A program made the translations under genes and the position numbers. DNA of 24,425 bases from a virus: positions 1 through 24,425 of the IMG/VR virus record IMGVR_UViG_3300032287_000361; one strand, written 5' to 3'. Shown piece after piece: positions 967 to 17,127 of the stretch; positions within the stretch are counted from its first letter, which is position 1; every line of letters starts with the position of its first letter. The notes under the pieces were generated by a model. It saw only the letters and a list, made by a program, of their open reading frames with translations. It had not been told where the DNA came from and made no database searches.

Positions 967-2208
967 ATGAGTTTTATCTCACCATTCACTGGGGATGTGA
1001 TCCAGCCAACGGATGTCTCGTATCGAGCCGTCACGCTTACAACCAATACGCAACTGAACTGGCCGTCAAACAGCCAGACAAACTCAGACTTTGCGGCACG
1101 CATTATGAATGTTCAGGCCACATCTGCTGGCCTCAATCTTTATATGCCACCTGCAAATCAGACCTCTGTAGGTACTGATGCGCTGATACGAAATGTTGGC
1201 GCAGTGGCGTTTACTGTCAAGACCTTTGGCGGCAATGGCACGATTGTCTCGATCCCTGCTGGTCAGGCGCAGTACATCTACATCACTGACAACCCTGATG
1301 TGTATGGCACATGGGGCGTGATTGCTTTTGGTATTGGCTCCTCAAGTTCTGATGCCAACGCTTTGGCTGGCTTGGGATTGATTGCAATCTCTACGACGCT
1401 GAACCAAAGCCATCCATCGCAAAGCATCACAAATGGCTACACCTACCTTGCTGGCGACCGCGCCCAAACCAAGGTGTGGTCTAGTGGCTCTGGCACATCT
1501 ACCTTGCCTTTGGCTACTTCGCTTGGCAATAACTGGTTTACGCTATTCAAGAACAACGGCACTGGCACGATGACGATTTCCACCACTGGTGGCAATTTGC
1601 TTGATGGCCTAGTCTCGAAAACATTCCAGCCTAACGAATCAGCCTTCTTGGTTTGTACTGGTACAGAATATGTGACGATTGGTTATGGCGTAAACTCATC
1701 GTTTGCGTTTACTGCTTTGGTCAAGCCAGTGACTGGTGGAACCTACACGCTGACAACCAACGAAGCGCAGAACACCATTCAGGAGTATGTGGGCAATCTG
1801 GTGGCGAATGTGATTGCCATCTACCCGCAAGTGGTGACGCTGTATGTGATCTCCAACCAGACGGTGGACAATGGCTTCACGCTGACGGTCAAAACAAGCG
1901 CGGCTGGTGGCAACACGGTGATCATCCCCCCGGGGCAACAAGCCACGCTCGTTTGTGATGGAACCAACTTCTTCAACGCCAACACCGTGCAGGCAGGTGC
2001 AACCTCTCTGAACTTGGTGAACGGCACGGTGACCACGCCTGCGATTAACTTTGCGGCTGAAACAAACACTGGTATCTGGCGTAATGGTACTGGTGAGTTT
2101 GACATCGCTGTTTTGGGCGTGAATCGATTTGCACTGACGGCCACGGGCCTCAACATTGCAGGTGTCGGCACCTTTACTAGCGGAGTCAAAGGGGGCACAT
2201 TCCCATGA
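967..2208 (+). CDS. Fibre-like virion protein with repeated beta modules
   Basis: Protein of 413 residues, rich in Thr, Asn, Gly and Val and lacking long helices, as expected for a beta-structured tail or decoration protein. I see three related modules of roughly 90-110 residues, each with a T-h-K/S-T-x-G-G-N segment followed by IPxGQxA and a C/V-D/T-GT-x-F/Y segment. The best copies are around AFTVKTFGGNG...IPAGQ, MTISTTGGN and LTVKTSAAGGN...IPPGQ. The C-terminus (TNTGIWRNGTGEFDIAV, then RFALTATGLNIAG) resembles the short repeats that precede tail-fibre chaperone or knob regions. The stop overlaps the next start by 4 bases. It could be a tail fibre, a head fibre or a neck protein; the receptor role is inferred only. 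Confidence 0.55.
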   Translation: MSFISPFTGDVIQPTDVSYRAVTLTTNTQLNWPSNSQTNSDFAARIMNVQATSAGLNLYMPPANQTSVGTDALIRNVGAVAFTVKTFGGNGTIVSIPAGQAQYIYITDNPDVYGTWGVIAFGIGSSSSDANALAGLGLIAISTTLNQSHPSQSITNGYTYLAGDRAQTKVWSSGSGTSTLPLATSLGNNWFTLFKNNGTGTMTISTTGGNLLDGLVSKTFQPNESAFLVCTGTEYVTIGYGVNSSFAFTALVKPVTGGTYTLTTNEAQNTIQEYVGNLVANVIAIYPQVVTLYVISNQTVDNGFTLTVKTSAAGGNTVIIPPGQQATLVCDGTNFFNANTVQAGATSLNLVNGTVTTPAINFAAETNTGIWRNGTGEFDIAVLGVNRFALTATGLNIAGVGTFTSGVKGGTFP

Positions 2209-4196
2209 CCAAAAAAGTTTTTGCCCTTGATAGCCAACCCGGCATCCAGCGCGACGGCACCCAATTTGACAAATCCTTTTATAGCGATGGTCGCTGGGTT
2301 CGCTTTCAGCGTGGCCGTCCTCGCAAGATTGCTGGCTACAAAGAGATCGTGAACAACTTGGCTGGCCCTTCTCGTGGCATCTATGTGTTGCCTGAGAACG
2401 CCTACACCTACATCTACAACGGCTACTCTGATGGTGTGCAGGTGCTACCCATCAACAATGTGGGTATTGGTACTGGTATCACCAACTTTACACTGACAAA
2501 CTTTTCGCCAAACCAATACAACTTGTGGCAGTTTGATTCGTTGTTTGACTCCCAAGGTAGTGGCAATGAGTTGTTGATTGGGCACCCGGGGCAAAACCTG
2601 CTTTACATCGACAGCAATGTAAACACACCTGTTTTGGGCGGCGATACGCTTGGCACCACCATGTCTGCGATTGGCGTGTTCACGGCCACAGCAACCACTG
2701 TCAATGGAAACACAACTATCACCCTGTCTGCCGCCAATACTCTAGTTGGCGCAGGCCAAACCGTAACAGGCACTGGCATCCCCGCCAACACGACTGTGGT
2801 GTCTGTTGCCACTACCAGCGTGGTAATTTCAAACGCCGCTACCGCAAGCGGAACTGTCACCGTAACCTTTAACAACAATGTGTCTGTCTCTGGCGGCGCG
2901 GTGGTGTTGCACCCTTATGTTTTTGTGTATGGCAACAATGGCCTGATTAGAAACTGCGCCGCAGGAGACCCTTCTAATTGGGTCTCTGCTGACTCAAACG
3001 AGACCAATGTGGCCTCCACAAAGGTTGTCAAGGGCTTGCCTGTTCGCGGTGGTTCTAACGCTCCTTCTGGTTTATTTTGGTCTTTGGATTCTTTGATCCG
3101 CGTTTCGTATACGCCAACCACTGTGACGGTTGCGGGTTCGCCCCAAACTTTCTACTGGCGCTATGACTTGATTTCAAGCCAGTCGTCTATCTTGTCGTCG
3201 TCATCTGTGATTGAGTATGACGGTATCTACTACTGGTGTGGTGTTGATCGCTTCTTGCTGTACAACGGTGTGGTCAAAGAAATTCCAAACACCTTCAACC
3301 AAAACTACTTTTTTGACAACCTGAATTACGACCAGCGTCAAAAAGTGTATGCCACCAAGGTTCCTCGCTTCGGTGAAATCTGGTGGTTTTACCCAAGCGG
3401 ATCGTCAACTGAATGCAACGACTGCATCATCTACAACATCCGCGAGAACTGCTGGTATGACTCTGGCAAAGCCTTGGGCGCACGCCGCTCTGCTGGATAC
3501 TTCTCGCAGGTGTTTCACTACCCAATCAACGCTGGCTGGGAAATCAATGTGGCTGGTGGCGTGAATGCCTACTCTTATGTTGGCGGCACGCTGTACACCA
3601 ATGGCACATATTTGGCCCAGCCCTTGACGGGCGGTGCTGGCACTGGCGCAACTGCTGACCTTGTGGTAACTGGCGGTATTGTGACCAGCGTGACCATTGT
3701 GAATCGTGGCTCTGGGTATGTGGTTGGTAACACATTGTCTGCGGCATTGCCTGTTGGCTCTGGCTTTGCACTGACCGTAAACACCCTAATGAACTTCACC
3801 AGTTTGTGGCAACACGAGATTGGTGTTGACGCTGTACAGGGGCTGGCTTCTTTGGCGATTGAGTCTTACTTTGAGACCAATGACCTTGGCTGGGTATCTG
3901 GTGGCCCGTCGCAAAACTCCCCAGTGGGCGACAATCGCTGGCTCAGAATTGAGCGTATTGAGCCTGACTTCATTCAATCTGGACAGATGAATGTGGTGGT
4001 AACTGGTAAACCTTTTGCTCAAGGATCAGACCAAGAGAGCGCGGCATATCCATTTGACCCAGACACCAGCAAGATTGACATGAGAGAGCAACGCAGGGAA
4101 CTGCGCTTGCGCTTTAGTTCAAATACAGCAGGTGGTGACTACCAAACTGGTAAAGTGATGTTGAACGCAGATATTGGTGATGTGAGGCCATACTAA
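2205..4196 (+). CDS. Tail nozzle/hub-like structural protein
   Basis: Protein of 663 residues. The N-terminal motif SDGRWVRFQRGRPRKIAGY (residues 27-45) followed by a beta-propeller-like sequence is typical of the large tubular or nozzle tail protein of short-tailed phages (functional counterpart of T7 gp12 or P22 gp10). Two stretches look like insertions. One is a Thr/Val/Ala-rich beta segment at about 159-225. The other, at about 469-528, carries GGAGTGATAD, GGIVTSVTIVNRGSGY, a motif that recurs in phage tail proteins as a small beta domain. Position after adaptor and fibre genes agrees with a nozzle. ATG start overlaps the previous stop (ATGA); aaaggggg upstream serves as ribosome site. 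Overall structural role is confident, exact identity moderate. Confidence 0.65.
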   Translation: MTKKVFALDSQPGIQRDGTQFDKSFYSDGRWVRFQRGRPRKIAGYKEIVNNLAGPSRGIYVLPENAYTYIYNGYSDGVQVLPINNVGIGTGITNFTLTNFSPNQYNLWQFDSLFDSQGSGNELLIGHPGQNLLYIDSNVNTPVLGGDTLGTTMSAIGVFTATATTVNGNTTITLSAANTLVGAGQTVTGTGIPANTTVVSVATTSVVISNAATASGTVTVTFNNNVSVSGGAVVLHPYVFVYGNNGLIRNCAAGDPSNWVSADSNETNVASTKVVKGLPVRGGSNAPSGLFWSLDSLIRVSYTPTTVTVAGSPQTFYWRYDLISSQSSILSSSSVIEYDGIYYWCGVDRFLLYNGVVKEIPNTFNQNYFFDNLNYDQRQKVYATKVPRFGEIWWFYPSGSSTECNDCIIYNIRENCWYDSGKALGARRSAGYFSQVFHYPINAGWEINVAGGVNAYSYVGGTLYTNGTYLAQPLTGGAGTGATADLVVTGGIVTSVTIVNRGSGYVVGNTLSAALPVGSGFALTVNTLMNFTSLWQHEIGVDAVQGLASLAIESYFETNDLGWVSGGPSQNSPVGDNRWLRIERIEPDFIQSGQMNVVVTGKPFAQGSDQESAAYPFDPDTSKIDMREQRRELRLRFSSNTAGGDYQTGKVMLNADIGDVRPY

Positions 4197-4456
4197 TGGC
4201 ACTTGCAGTCGTCTACGATCCTCGTTTTCATACATTTCCGTCATGGGCGTCGCTTATGTGCGAGGCGTATGCTGGCCAACAGTTGGCCATTCCAAACGAG
4301 GATACCGATTGGAAAGAGTGGGCGTCAGGGTTAAAAGCCATCGATATTTTTACAAACGAGGGCATCCCCGGGCCGTACATTTATGATGACTGGAAAGATT
4401 GGGCTTCCGCTTTGGTGGGAGCCGTAAACCAACCAACACAAGCACCAGACCAATGA
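4196..4456 (+). CDS. Small late protein with repeated DWK(E/D)WAS motif
   Basis: Protein of 86 residues whose family I do not recognise. Its start shares one base with the nozzle stop (TAATG), and its own stop overlaps the ACP start. It has an internal repeat: DWKEWAS at 38-44 and DWKDWAS at 65-71, each followed by a short helix with Leu, and a related PSWASL at 15-20. This suggests two or three copies of a small helical unit. No signal peptide or membrane segment is seen. Lying between the nozzle-like gene and the ACP/KAS pair, it could be a minor virion protein or belong with the acyl-chain genes; the sequence does not decide. Confidence 0.7.
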   Translation: MALAVVYDPRFHTFPSWASLMCEAYAGQQLAIPNEDTDWKEWASGLKAIDIFTNEGIPGPYIYDDWKDWASALVGAVNQPTQAPDQ

Positions 4457-4737
4457 TTGATTTTATCGAACTATTTAATGCTGTTGCACGGGTTGCAAAG
4501 CCTGCGCATATGTCATTCAAGCCAGCCGAGTCTATGGAAGACACAATGGCCGAGTTGAACATTGACAGCCTTGATGGTTTGGTGATGATTATGTATTTGA
4601 CTGAGTTGTATGGTATTGCCGACGAGGTCTGTAAAGAGTGGCACCCAACCACGGTGCAGGAAATCCATGACCTTGTTATGGCAAGTAAGACCATAGAGCC
4701 AGAGTCTGTCGAGAAGGCCAAGGAGCAGATCAAATGA
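4453..4737 (+). CDS. Phage-encoded acyl carrier protein
   Basis: Protein of 94 residues with the acyl carrier signature LNIDSLDGLVMIMYLTELYG. Ser39 in the DSLD motif is the expected site for 4'-phosphopantetheine attachment by a host phosphopantetheinyl transferase, and an amphipathic helix II follows as in bacterial AcpP. It is longer than typical AcpP (about 78 residues) at both ends, with a Lys/Glu-rich C-terminal extension. The ATG at 4453 is chosen because it makes an ATGA overlap with the previous stop and gives a clean ACP; an in-frame ATG at 4399 would add an unrelated leader inside the upstream gene. The KAS gene starts within its stop codon (ATGA), so the two are probably translated together. 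The carrier fold is confident; the acyl chain carried is unknown. Confidence 0.88.
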   Translation: MIDFIELFNAVARVAKPAHMSFKPAESMEDTMAELNIDSLDGLVMIMYLTELYGIADEVCKEWHPTTVQEIHDLVMASKTIEPESVEKAKEQIK

Positions 4738-5846
4738 TCTATCTGACGCACTACCGCACGGCTTCCACGACAAACTGCAATTTGTTTGACGACATCGTCT
4801 ACCCACAGAAGGCTCACTGGTTTCCTGATACCTACGCCCGCGCTAAGTCTGGGATGTTCTATGTGCCACACAAGTTGGCCGAGAAGGTGCTTGATCCTGA
4901 GTTACTGACCTATCTGCGTGAGAACCCTGTTGGCAAGACTGCATTCATTCTGGCGGCTGGCAACGCCCATTTTGCTGGTATCAACCAGCGCCCCTACCCA
5001 CAAAACAGCCTGAACTATGTTTACAAGTTCCTGCCATTCACCCTGACGCAAGTCTACGCTGGCCGTACTGCGCAGGCGTTTGGCAACATGGATATGGTCA
5101 CCACTGACTCGTCAGCCTGCGCCTCTAGCCTCAAGGTAATGATGGATGTGCAGAATTTGATCACCCACTATCATTTTGATAGGGTCATTGTGCTGACTGT
5201 GGAAGACGGCGTTACAAACGCTGTGTTGGAGTTTTTTGGTGAATCCAAGGCGGTGTTGACCCAAAAACAAGAGGAAACAGGCATCAAGCCCTCGGCTTTT
5301 GATGGCAAGAACTTTGGTTTCCGAGTTGGCCAAGGGGCCGCGCTGGCCGTGTTTGAGTCTGATTACGCCGTGGGCAAGTTGGACGCTACCCCTCACGCCG
5401 CCTTAATTGGTGCCTACAACGCTTCAGAAGCCTCTACAAACGCGATTGGCCAACTGGAGGATGGTGAGGGCTTTACCAAGGCTATAAACGGCGCTATCCA
5501 CTATTCCAACCTGATGCCAAACGAAATTACGATTGTGAAGACCCACGGCACGGGCACTGAATCCAACAATAAGGCTGAAAAAGCCGCCCTGTTGAACACT
5601 CTTGACCAGTTTGTGGCCACCTCGTACAAACAGAAAATTGGCCACACAATGGGTTCCAGTGGCCTATTGGAAACACTTTTGTTGCTAGAGGACTTAAAAT
5701 CTGGTTATGTGCCCGCAATCGAGAATAGAACTGAAACCGATTCGGTTTTCCTTTCGGATTCGGTTAGCGCCCCAGATGGGTTGATTCTGAGTTTGGCGGC
5801 TGGCATGGGAAACATTTATTCCGCCGCAATATTCAAGGGGCTATGA
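4734..5846 (+). CDS. Beta-ketoacyl-ACP synthase (KAS I/II-like condensing enzyme)
   Basis: Thiolase-fold condensing enzyme of 370 residues. Expected reaction: decarboxylative condensation of malonyl-ACP with an acyl group held on the active-site cysteine. The full catalytic set is visible: Cys129 in TTDSSACASSL, His271 in VKTHGTGTESNNKAE, Lys299 and His304 in SYKQKIGHTMGSSG, plus the FGF-type segment KNFGFRVGQGAALAVFE at 192-208 and the glycine-rich end AAGMGNIYSA. The Cys environment resembles polyketide synthase and FabF-type KS rather than FabH. It is about 35-40 residues shorter at the N-terminus than E. coli FabF and lacks the usual opening hVhTG-type strand. Ribosome site aaggag lies 9 bases before the ATG, which overlaps the ACP stop. 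No other fatty acid or polyketide gene is in view, so substrates must come from the host or elsewhere in the phage. Confidence 0.9.
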   Translation: MIYLTHYRTASTTNCNLFDDIVYPQKAHWFPDTYARAKSGMFYVPHKLAEKVLDPELLTYLRENPVGKTAFILAAGNAHFAGINQRPYPQNSLNYVYKFLPFTLTQVYAGRTAQAFGNMDMVTTDSSACASSLKVMMDVQNLITHYHFDRVIVLTVEDGVTNAVLEFFGESKAVLTQKQEETGIKPSAFDGKNFGFRVGQGAALAVFESDYAVGKLDATPHAALIGAYNASEASTNAIGQLEDGEGFTKAINGAIHYSNLMPNEITIVKTHGTGTESNNKAEKAALLNTLDQFVATSYKQKIGHTMGSSGLLETLLLLEDLKSGYVPAIENRTETDSVFLSDSVSAPDGLILSLAAGMGNIYSAAIFKGL

Positions 5847-5847
5847 A

Positions 5848-6300
5848 ATGCAGATGATTGACAGCAGGACGCAAAAGTTAAGTGGTGAGCAGATCGTTGA
5901 GATCGCCGCCAAGAACACCAAGGTTGACCGTCCATTGGATCAGGTCAAGGAGATGTTGACCATTGAGTTCAATATGCCCAACACTTGGAAAATGCGTGAA
6001 GGCAATACTATTTTCCTTTGTCACAAAAGCAAGCAACCCGGCTACGGATACTTTCGTGCTTTAAATGCTGACACGGCGCAAAACTTCTTGCAAAATAGCC
6101 GTGTGTTTGCCGATGCGGCATATAAGGTAGGGTTTGATGTTCTTGTGACTCAATTTCAAGACTCCAGTTTGTTGGGCTTATTCAAAATGATTTCGCGCAA
6201 TCCAGTTCGCGAAGGCATGGGGTACGCCGCCAAAAAAATAGAAGACGGCGGATTCCAAGTTACTTTGGTACTTGGCCCCGCAAGAGGGGGTAAAAAATGA
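5848..6300 (+). CDS. GNAT-fold-like small protein (T7 gp13-like position), possible acyltransferase
   Basis: Protein of 150 residues starting one base after the KAS stop, with aaggggct as ribosome site. Predicted order in the second half is strand (GYGYFRAL, 65-72), long helix (about 74-95), strand (DVLVTQF, 97-103), helix (SLLGLFKMISR, 107-117), strand (MGYAAKKI) and strand (FQVTLVLG). This is the beta4-alpha3-beta5-alpha4-beta6-beta7 order of GNAT acetyltransferases. The acetyl-CoA binding Q/R-x-x-G-x-G/A motif expected before the long helix is not visible. As I recall, T7 gp13, which lies at the equivalent place after the nozzle gene, is also placed in the acetyltransferase-like clan. It may be a virion or assembly protein without catalysis, or an acyltransferase that uses acyl-ACP from the two genes before it. 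Fold assignment is inferred by eye. Confidence 0.5.
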   Translation: MQMIDSRTQKLSGEQIVEIAAKNTKVDRPLDQVKEMLTIEFNMPNTWKMREGNTIFLCHKSKQPGYGYFRALNADTAQNFLQNSRVFADAAYKVGFDVLVTQFQDSSLLGLFKMISRNPVREGMGYAAKKIEDGGFQVTLVLGPARGGKK

Positions 6301-8264
6301 GCGCAATTGTTGAAGCCATAAGTGATGCAATTGGCGATGTCGTTGAGATGGTCGGCGATGTTGTTGAAGGCGTTGTTGACCTTGCTGAAGATGTCATTGA
6401 AACCGTTGCTGAAAACCCTTGGCTAATTGTTGCCGCAATTGCGGCCCCTTATGCTTTGAGCGCCCTAGCGGCAGAAGCCGCCGTGGTTGGAGTTGCGACT
6501 GCCGCAGAGACAGCAATTGCTGGTGAAGCGTTTGCAGGCACTTTGTCTGCGTTTGAGGTTGCTGGTGCCGCAGAGGCTGTTGCTTCTGGGACTGCTGTTC
6601 TTGAGGCTACTGGTGCCGTTACCGCAGTTGCCAGCGCAGAAACAGTTGCGGCAACCACATTGATTGAGGCTGGCGCAACAGTGGAAGCCGCCGCAACTGG
6701 CGCATCTTTGGTTGCCGAAGGCGCAACAGTTGCAGAGGCTGTTACTACTGCATCAGCAGGCAATGTCACTGCATCCAGTTTTGTTGAGGCTGTGACTAGC
6801 ACTTTTGACGCGGCATCAAGTACATTGCAGACCCTTTCTCAGGGTGCAACAAATATTACAAACATCATTGGCGAAACACTGCTCCCCGGGGCCGACGCAA
6901 CGCTACAAAATTTTGCAGGCAAAGTTGCTTTGAACACCGCCACAAACGGCGGCGATCTTGGCGAAGCATTGACTAGCAGTTTAATTTCTGTTGGAACTGG
7001 CTTTGTCGGTTCTGAAGTGGCCGCAGAGACTGGCTCAAAGATTCTTGGACAAACTGCCGCATCCACGCTTGGCACCGTTGTAAAAGGTGGCGATGTAAAC
7101 CTTTCAAGCATTGGATCAAACCTTGCTGGTAACTATGTTGGCAGTGAAGTTGCTGGCGATACTGGATCAACCCTTGCAGGGAATGCCGCAAAAACAGTGA
7201 CGACTAGTCTTCTTCAAGGCAAGGACGCAACAACTGGCCTGCTTAATCTTGGCATCAATGAACTAGGCAATGCGGTAACTGGTCAAATTAACGACTTTGT
7301 CAGTAGCGCGGGCGACGCCATTACAAGCGGCGGCGGTTTAACGGTTACCGATACAGATGTTGACGACTTAGTTTCTAGCATTAACTCAGCCAACGACACG
7401 ACCAGTTCAACTGGAACAAGTGGTTTGTCTGTTCTATCGGACGCATCATTGGCTGGAACCGCAGGGACTGGTGACGCAAGTAGCACTACAAATACAGGCG
7501 ACACAACACTTGACACTTCAACGCTGACATCAACAACCACAGGAACTGGTGGCACTGACACATCAAACTTGTTTGGTTCTGGTGCTGACGATTCATTCAC
7601 GCTGACTGGTGGCAATGACATTGACACTGGAGATGATGACGACACAATTGTTGGCGGTCTGACAACTGCAAGCACAGACACAACTACGGGTAGCACAGGC
7701 TCGACTACAGGCTCAACTACAGGGACTGATACTACGGCTGGAACAGGAAAAACAACCACCACTGGTGGACTGACTGCCGCCCAACAAGCCTTGCTTGATG
7801 CAAACAGCACAAGCACGGTCAACAACACTGCAAATGATGTTTCGTCTGCCGCTGATACGGCTGTTGTTGGTGGCTTGAATCAAGCATCCGATACAACGGC
7901 CACTGATACTGCTGGCACAACAGGAACTACTGGAAGCACAGCGGCCACTGCGGCGACCGCAGGTACAAATGTTTTGAGCAACATTCTTAAAAAGTCTATT
8001 GCCACAACTGGTTCCAACACTGCAAAAACTCTTATTAAGAAGGCCGCTGGACAAAAGACCGCCATGCCGTCTGTTGCTAAGACTTTGGGTAGCAATGTAC
8101 TGAACCAGATGCGAAGCACTGTGGTTCCAAAATCAGTTGATATTTCAAAACTGATGCCAGTTCCAAGCACAAAGAAAACGGCTCCTCTCAAAGTGAATGT
8201 GAGCAAATTGACTCCAGTCGGAAACATCTCTGGCTTGTCAACTCTGATCAAAGGTAAAGGATAA
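6297..8264 (+). CDS. Ala/Thr/Gly-rich putative internal virion protein with RTX-like segment
   Basis: Protein of 655 residues of low complexity. An acidic amphipathic start (ISDAIGDVVEMVGDVVEGV) leads to a hydrophobic Ala-rich stretch at about 40-110 that could insert in a membrane. Then comes a region with repeated GSEVAxxTGSxxxG elements (about 240-300), a Thr/Ser/Gly/Asp-rich segment, and at 425-455 an RTX-like Asp/Gly run (FGSGADDSF, TGGNDIDTGDDDDTIVGG). The C-terminal 100 residues are basic, with VSKLTPVG-type repeats (ISKLMPV, VSKLTPV). Its position between the GNAT-like gene and the very large protein corresponds to internal or ejection proteins of T7-like phages. ATG overlaps the previous stop. 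Function is inferred from context; no enzyme domain is visible. Confidence 0.6.
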   Translation: MSAIVEAISDAIGDVVEMVGDVVEGVVDLAEDVIETVAENPWLIVAAIAAPYALSALAAEAAVVGVATAAETAIAGEAFAGTLSAFEVAGAAEAVASGTAVLEATGAVTAVASAETVAATTLIEAGATVEAAATGASLVAEGATVAEAVTTASAGNVTASSFVEAVTSTFDAASSTLQTLSQGATNITNIIGETLLPGADATLQNFAGKVALNTATNGGDLGEALTSSLISVGTGFVGSEVAAETGSKILGQTAASTLGTVVKGGDVNLSSIGSNLAGNYVGSEVAGDTGSTLAGNAAKTVTTSLLQGKDATTGLLNLGINELGNAVTGQINDFVSSAGDAITSGGGLTVTDTDVDDLVSSINSANDTTSSTGTSGLSVLSDASLAGTAGTGDASSTTNTGDTTLDTSTLTSTTTGTGGTDTSNLFGSGADDSFTLTGGNDIDTGDDDDTIVGGLTTASTDTTTGSTGSTTGSTTGTDTTAGTGKTTTTGGLTAAQQALLDANSTSTVNNTANDVSSAADTAVVGGLNQASDTTATDTAGTTGTTGSTAATAATAGTNVLSNILKKSIATTGSNTAKTLIKKAAGQKTAMPSVAKTLGSNVLNQMRSTVVPKSVDISKLMPVPSTKKTAPLKVNVSKLTPVGNISGLSTLIKGKG

Positions 8265-16676: not shown

Positions 16677-16700
16677 GCCCCCGTAACTGGGGGCTTTTTT
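16677..16700 (+). terminator. Rho-independent terminator of the late unit
   Basis: A perfect 6-bp stem, gccccc (16677-16682) and gggggc (16689-16694), with loop gtaact, is followed by six T. It lies 26 bases after the last late gene. The T-run overlaps the final codon of the converging leftward operon, so the element separates convergent transcripts. Read leftward, the hairpin has no following U-run, so it is expected to act mainly on rightward transcripts. Confidence 0.88.
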
Positions 16701-17127
16701 ATGCGTCAAGAAAATCCTTCTGGCCAATCTTTAGCGGCCCGCTTTTGACACGCCACTGAAGGTTGGTCTGGTTGTCGATGGTGTACATGATCAGCCACGA
16801 CAGCATATCTGCGGATATGGTTTCGCCGCACTCGGAGACATCCCAGTATTTGATCCCTTCGACTTCGCGCTCGGTGACGATGGCCTTGGACTTATCTGGG
16901 CGCATCCACAGGGGCAAGGTGTTCTCTTTCAGCCACACGCATTTGTAGGTCTGGCAGGGGTTCTCTGGGCGGGTTTCGTAGATGCCGCAACCGTCCTGTA
17001 GGTAGAAGCATGGACGCCCCGGCTGGAAGGTGTGGCCGTGGGCTTCCCCAGTCAGCCACCCCTCACAGCAGGCCGTGCATTCCCCGCAGGCGCGTTCTGG
17101 AATTATTGGAATTACTTTGTCGGTCAT
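16699..17127 (-). CDS. CxxCxxCC metal-chelating protein (YkgJ / UPF0153-like)
   Basis: Protein of 142 residues with the Cys pattern of the YkgJ-type zinc- or iron-chelating family: CGECTACC (Cys14, 17, 20, 21), then Cys40 in GRPCFYL, Cys47 in DGCGIYE, Cys58 and Cys63 in RPENPCQTYKC. The phrase GCGIYETRPENPCQTYKC is characteristic. The C-terminal half has no Cys pair motif and contains a hydrophobic helix (DMLSWLIMYTI). The biochemical role of the family is poorly known; metal binding is inferred from the cysteines. It is the last gene of the leftward operon, its ATG overlapping the stop of the preceding small gene. Its T-rich end lies in the terminator of the opposite unit. Confidence 0.8.
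   Translation of the reverse strand: MTDKVIPIIPERACGECTACCEGWLTGEAHGHTFQPGRPCFYLQDGCGIYETRPENPCQTYKCVWLKENTLPLWMRPDKSKAIVTEREVEGIKYWDVSECGETISADMLSWLIMYTIDNQTNLQWRVKSGPLKIGQKDFLDA

Follow-up and report, generated by a model that had tools for sequence, protein, structure and literature searches.

Phages carrying genes of fatty-acid synthesis have been described before. In three Rhodobacteraceae prophages, acpP, fabF and fabG lie together and have been interpreted as auxiliary metabolic genes (PMC8224337), and a Fonsibacter phage has fabF among its genes for lipid biosynthesis (PMC7029224). The earlier phage acpP/fabF cases that we found have a host-like gene order or are single copies, whereas the locus analysed here holds a diverged, phage-specific pair: an acyl carrier protein (ACP) gene and a beta-ketoacyl synthase (KAS) gene. 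Our search of open-licence papers returned no account of a tail module that contains a dedicated and diverged pair of ACP and KAS genes, nor, under the phrases tried, any paper naming a phage ACP or ketosynthase.

The ACP-KAS pair and its neighbours

The sequence is an IMG/VR virus record of 24,425 bases, which we refer to as the window. On its plus strand, a 94-aa ACP (4453–4737) with a DSLD motif and a net charge of −10, recognised from its open-reading frame, profile searches and a family alignment, precedes a 370-aa KAS of the FabF/polyketide ketosynthase (PKS-KS) type (4734–5846, phrog_35856), assigned from domain, profile and structure matches. The ACP stop and KAS start share an ATGA overlap (4734–4737), which probably couples their translation, and this −4 spacing recurs in 159 of 163 IMG/VR loci. 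The predicted phosphopantetheine attachment site, Ser39 (codon 4567–4569), is invariant in 34 diverse ACPs, whilst in the KAS alignment Cys129 (5118–5120), His271 (5544–5546), Lys299 (5628–5630) and His304 (5643–5645) fall on FabF residues C163, H303, K335 and H340. The first-pass annotation had named both proteins, these five residues and the overlap, all of which were confirmed to the codon. It had also set the pair between a nozzle-like gene and internal virion genes, and the neighbours bear this out.

Upstream lie an adaptor gene, a P22 gp10-like tail hub/nozzle gene (2205–4196, plus strand, PHROG match to phrog_3287) and a gene for a conserved 86-aa tail-module protein (4196–4456, plus strand), whose stop overlaps the ACP start in another ATGA. 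Downstream, an open-reading frame for a 150-aa protein with a predicted GNAT fold (5848–6300, plus strand) starts 2 bases past the KAS stop, followed by internal-virion-type genes, among them one for a putative internal virion (ejection-type) protein of 655 aa (6297–8264, plus strand), which is without a family match and was identified by its position. The upstream overlap and the 2-base gap downstream thus place the pair inside a gene run, and a promoter and terminator scan of the run of structural genes around the pair found nothing above chance level. Within the gp10-like gene, a Gly/Thr-rich insert (approximately residues 458–530) matches tail-fibre and structural PHROGs, and relatives of this gene often align to gp10 in pieces only, so inserts may vary. 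Elsewhere in the window, a Cys-rich 142-aa protein (16699–17127, minus strand; CGECTACC...C...C) with no Pfam match is encoded among minus-strand genes.

The KAS matched the Pfam domains Ketoacyl-synt_C (e-value 5.8e-14) and ketoacyl-synt (8e-10), the NCBIfam fabF model (TIGR03150, 5.5e-30) and FabF structures (2.6e-21), and a profile of 36 diverse KAS members reached FabF chains at 2e-28. As these matches are of the FabF/PKS type, a FabH-type KAS was ruled out, and the first-pass judgement that the enzyme stands nearer to FabF and polyketide KS than to FabH was upheld by family, structure and fold matches alike. Its score of 104.4 bits is below the FabF equivalog cut-off of 493.75; the phage protein is predicted to be a KAS, and no FabF equivalog. 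Structure prediction, which the first-pass annotation had put forward as a check, gave an AlphaFold2 model (pLDDT 91.1) with a full-length, thiolase-type KAS fold of the FabF type, aligning with S. pneumoniae FabF over 356 residues (Z 41, rmsd 3.2) at ~20% identity (E. coli FabF also ~20%); the top fold matches also included the actinorhodin and AntDE KS. The catalytic Cys/His/Lys/His set is kept in 72 of 72 distinct close KAS and 36 of 36 diverse KAS, and the KAS is predicted, by sequence, to be a catalytically competent condensing enzyme. The gating Phe of the GFGG loop (FabF Phe400) is missing, the phage KAS reads GMGN at this place, with Met358 (5805–5807) invariant in the phage family. 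A low-confidence stretch of the model (residues 80–84) aligns with FabF residues 107–108, which lie near the acyl pocket, so the predicted pocket shape is provisional.

The ACP is highly diverged, and single-sequence searches therefore fall short (weak matches, e-value 0.007–0.07, under the Pfam and NCBIfam ACP cut-offs), whereas profiles of 14 or 34 phage ACPs put ACPs at the head of the PDB list (best e-value 8.7e-5). The D-S-L-D motif is kept in 70 of 70 distinct close ACPs, and among the 34 diverse ones invariance is confined to Asp38, Ser39 and Asp41, the Ser sitting in DSL where helix II begins. The protein is small and as acidic as its family (median net charge −10). In the helix II alignment, E. 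coli Glu41 is replaced by Val44 and Glu47 by Thr50; the acidic residues that AcpP uses for its host partners are partly lost in the phage ACP, and host enzymes may therefore recognise it poorly. Mean p-distance is 0.42 for the ACP and 0.27 for the KAS, the ACP being the faster-evolving of the two. This faster evolution would fit a non-catalytic or interfering role, in which the ACP would tie up phosphopantetheine or the FAS enzymes of the host, or the two proteins would together form an assembly factor, with the KAS as partner; the absence of a visible host-independent pathway (see below) would fit it as well. Full conservation of Cys129, His271, Lys299, His304 and the ACP Ser39 would be unexpected under such a role, which we regard as very unlikely.

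Distribution, loss and relocation

Scanning IMG/VR with the window KAS gave 349 relatives, and an alignment-based scan gave at least 576 related stretches; the best 80 relatives were kept per scan, and 164 loci, near-duplicates included, were analysed. The same gene pair, which the first-pass annotation had proposed to seek in other phage genomes, is present as ACP directly upstream of KAS in 163 of the 164, the exception (L201) starting at a contig end. The tail-type setting, in which the gp10/86-aa genes precede the pair, accounts for most loci (152); six loci differ in the genes upstream (in the four inspected, structural genes surround the pair and a GNAT-fold gene follows), four have a helicase setting and two are too short to place. 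In one group, the 86-aa protein before the ACP is replaced by one of 113–115 aa (L146 9361–9708, L177 7361–7708, L213 7357–7698).

Among 50,697 phage records, the sole close relative was that of an uncultured phage (MW202545.1, 64% identity). Fifteen further matches at 23–29% identity, none of them annotated, were to Enterococcus, Listeria, Staphylococcus and Pseudomonas phages and unnamed faecal-phage records, and look like host FabF. In the genome_contigs set (84,980 bacterial and archaeal genomes), scanned with short patterns that diverged relatives can escape, L146 was the sole relative above 31% identity. This locus (JAGYJQ010000016.1) is a 37.6 kb contig binned in a Balneolaceae MAG and is phage-like, carrying the ACP-KAS pair alongside major head and tail-type genes; the bin is possibly a hint of the host, or a binning error.

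These distances bear on whether the pair are ordinary auxiliary metabolic genes, that is, host acpP and fabF copies that add host fatty-acid synthesis capacity. Such a role has precedents in the acpP, fabF and fabG of the three Rhodobacteraceae prophages (PMC8224337) and the fabF of the Fonsibacter phage (PMC7029224), and it would suit a pair that is dispensable and movable, as this one is. We nevertheless consider it unlikely, as there is no sign of a recent host copy (genome_contigs matches of ≤31% bar the phage-like L146, and ~20% for E. coli FabF), the ACP is under the Pfam and NCBIfam ACP cut-offs, and the helix II acidic residues for host partners are partly lost.

Median dN/dS was 0.075 for the KAS, 0.092 for the ACP and 0.082 for the GNAT-fold gene, and no closed KAS open-reading frame was shorter than 355 aa. 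A chance open-reading frame or pseudogene is ruled out by dN/dS and the conserved motifs, and the absence from relatives together with pseudogenisation that the first-pass annotation named as grounds against its reading was not what we found, absence not being the rule. ACP and KAS distances are correlated (Pearson 0.94), the highest value among the gene pairs tested (upstream gene vs. KAS, 0.88). On these comparisons of sequence, the pair is long established in the phage lineage, diverged and under purifying selection.

In five loci (L261, L292, L294, L310 and L331) the tail genes are the same but ACP and KAS are missing, the small upstream gene being followed by the GNAT-fold gene; these are natural empty-site alleles that retain the flanking genes (4926–5652 in L261), and 5 of 101 distinct GNAT-fold gene sequences are without the pair. 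The cultured Caulobacter phage GB2A, whose adaptor is 46% identical and whose tail hub is ~49% identical over part of its length, has no ACP, KAS or GNAT-fold gene, which prompted the idea of an obligate trio of the three. This was weakened by finding each without the other: the GNAT-fold gene stands alone in the five loci above, and the pair has no adjoining GNAT-fold gene in L205, L209, L210 and L215.

In these latter four loci (1576–5291 in L205), the setting is of a replication type: the pair lies between a SNF2/DEAD-type helicase and a 98–103-aa protein, with VRR-NUC, primase, DUF2800 and ssDNA-binding genes nearby in L205 and L209, and neither the GNAT-fold gene nor the tail genes of the window were detected within the three helicase-setting loci examined. 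The helicase-setting clade (support 0.999) is nested in the tail-type clade, which implies that the pair moved as one unit, and the parent node support of 0.81 leaves the exact branch of relocation uncertain. Clean losses and relocation together indicate that the unit is the pair itself rather than the tail region; as read from these loci and trees, ACP-KAS is an autonomous accessory two-gene unit, inherited, lost and relocated together. Given such autonomy, a place among virion genes says little for a virion role. The first-pass annotation had taken the late-gene placement to suggest expression at virion assembly; the helicase-setting clade and the clean losses from similar tail modules speak against reading an assembly role from that placement. 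With the pair in a tail module in the great majority of loci, a link to the virion may nonetheless exist.

Pathway context and proposed role

The first-pass annotation had found no reductase, dehydratase or malonyl transferase in the window, and we extended this to 19 long phage records (18 from IMG/VR plus MW202545.1), some of which are perhaps incomplete. Searches that gave positives in control genomes detected no malonyl transferase (Acyl_transf_1, FabD), adh_short_C2 reductase (FabG type), FabA/Z dehydratase or 4′-phosphopantetheinyl transferase (ACPS) in any of the 19, whilst exactly one KAS (PF02801 match) was present in each. For these four families and in the 19 records, additional pathway genes outside the locus were thus ruled out, and holo-ACP formation, malonyl loading and reduction would therefore be the work of the host. 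The phage ACP would be an ACP-family protein whose holo form, if made, depends on the host, since no phage phosphopantetheinyl transferase (PPTase) was found.

The reading that we prefer, tentatively and at a little short of an even chance, is that of a dedicated, competent KAS-ACP unit which makes 3-oxoacyl-ACP from host precursors for phage control of the host acyl-ACP/lipid pool. A host PPTase would convert the phage ACP to its holo form, the KAS would receive its acyl group from one of the host's acyl carriers and condense it with malonyl, and the 3-oxoacyl chain would be left on the phage ACP. The product may then leave as a 3-oxoacyl group, or host FabG/FabZ/FabI may complete it. In most phages the pair would be under the late operon and act mainly late in infection. 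Control of the host acyl-ACP/lipid pool during infection, and not virion building, would be the likeliest purpose, since a second genomic setting, without adjoining tail genes, retains the pair too. This suggests that uncultured phages with the pair redirect host fatty-acid chemistry, and it raises a testable question, namely which acyl group a virus needs that its host does not make, or does not make in time.

An alternative is that the pair feeds acyl-ACP to the adjoining GNAT-fold protein, which would acylate an amine, for instance a lysine of an internal virion protein bound to enter the host membrane, or a small molecule. HlyC-type acyltransferases, GNAT folds devoid of CoA-binding elements that draw on acyl-ACP, are the model for this reading. 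The gene directly downstream of the KAS belongs to the GNAT-fold family in 145 of the 146 loci with a downstream open-reading frame. Sequence searches of Pfam, PHROG and PDB gave no significant match for the 150-aa protein, and its assignment comes from a predicted model (pLDDT 90.8) with a GNAT fold (RimI: Z 11.4, 120 aligned residues, rmsd 2.9). The R/Q-x-x-G-x-G/A CoA pyrophosphate loop is missing, strand 4 and helix 3 being joined by a loop of ~3 residues that reads NADTA. The first Foldseek match was TofI, a LuxI-type synthase, and LuxI-type synthases use acyl-ACP; the match is weak (TM 0.42), and the best 50 rows of the VIA-align table contained generic GNATs only, with RtxC and LuxI structures absent. 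RtxC proteins are described as GNAT folds without CoA elements that use acyl-ACP (PMC8339906), and the nearly missing CoA loop would suit either an RtxC-like acyl-ACP user or a structural protein without activity. Among its fold relatives in viruses are proteins that bear the name internal virion protein A, such that the GNAT-fold protein, which may be an acyl-ACP user, may equally be structural, and no invariant His like that of HlyC was found in its family. As the GNAT-fold gene persists without the pair, and the helicase clade has the pair without an adjoining GNAT-fold gene, we rank this joint pathway second and, being drawn by analogy, as improbable. Its full form as a virus-specific acylation, with the 3-oxoacyl chain from ACP and KAS put by an acyl-ACP-using GNAT on an internal virion protein amine or a small signal molecule, seems to us distinctly unlikely.

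Comparison with known systems

With FabF/KAS II (TIGR03150), the phage KAS shares the fold, the order of catalytic residues and the malonyl-binding His motifs, but it is shorter (370 vs. ~410 aa), ~20% identical, has Met for the gating Phe, scores 104 vs. 494 bits, and comes with its own ACP gene, overlapping by ATGA. The type II minimal polyketide synthase (KS, chain length factor and ACP) likewise pairs a KS with an ACP, yet the phages have no second KS-like chain length factor, each of the 19 records encoding one KAS. HlyC/RtxC acyltransferases offer an analogy in that a GNAT fold stands beside an acyl-ACP source; in contrast, the phage GNAT-fold protein lacks the conserved His, is loosely linked to the pair and has no recognised sequence similarity to them.

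The 3-oxoacyl-ACP synthase of Caudoviricetes sp. ctpbd312 (MW202545.1) belongs to the same family with the same gene order, at the 64% identity given above; its annotation is automatic, its ACP is called hypothetical, and phrog_35856 carries no function label. In the Rhodobacteraceae prophages, a phage-borne ACP and KAS also adjoin, there in an E. coli-like fab order with fabG (PMC8224337), whereas the pair described here is without fabG, far from host genes, and located, across a large lineage of phages, in a tail module or a replication module.
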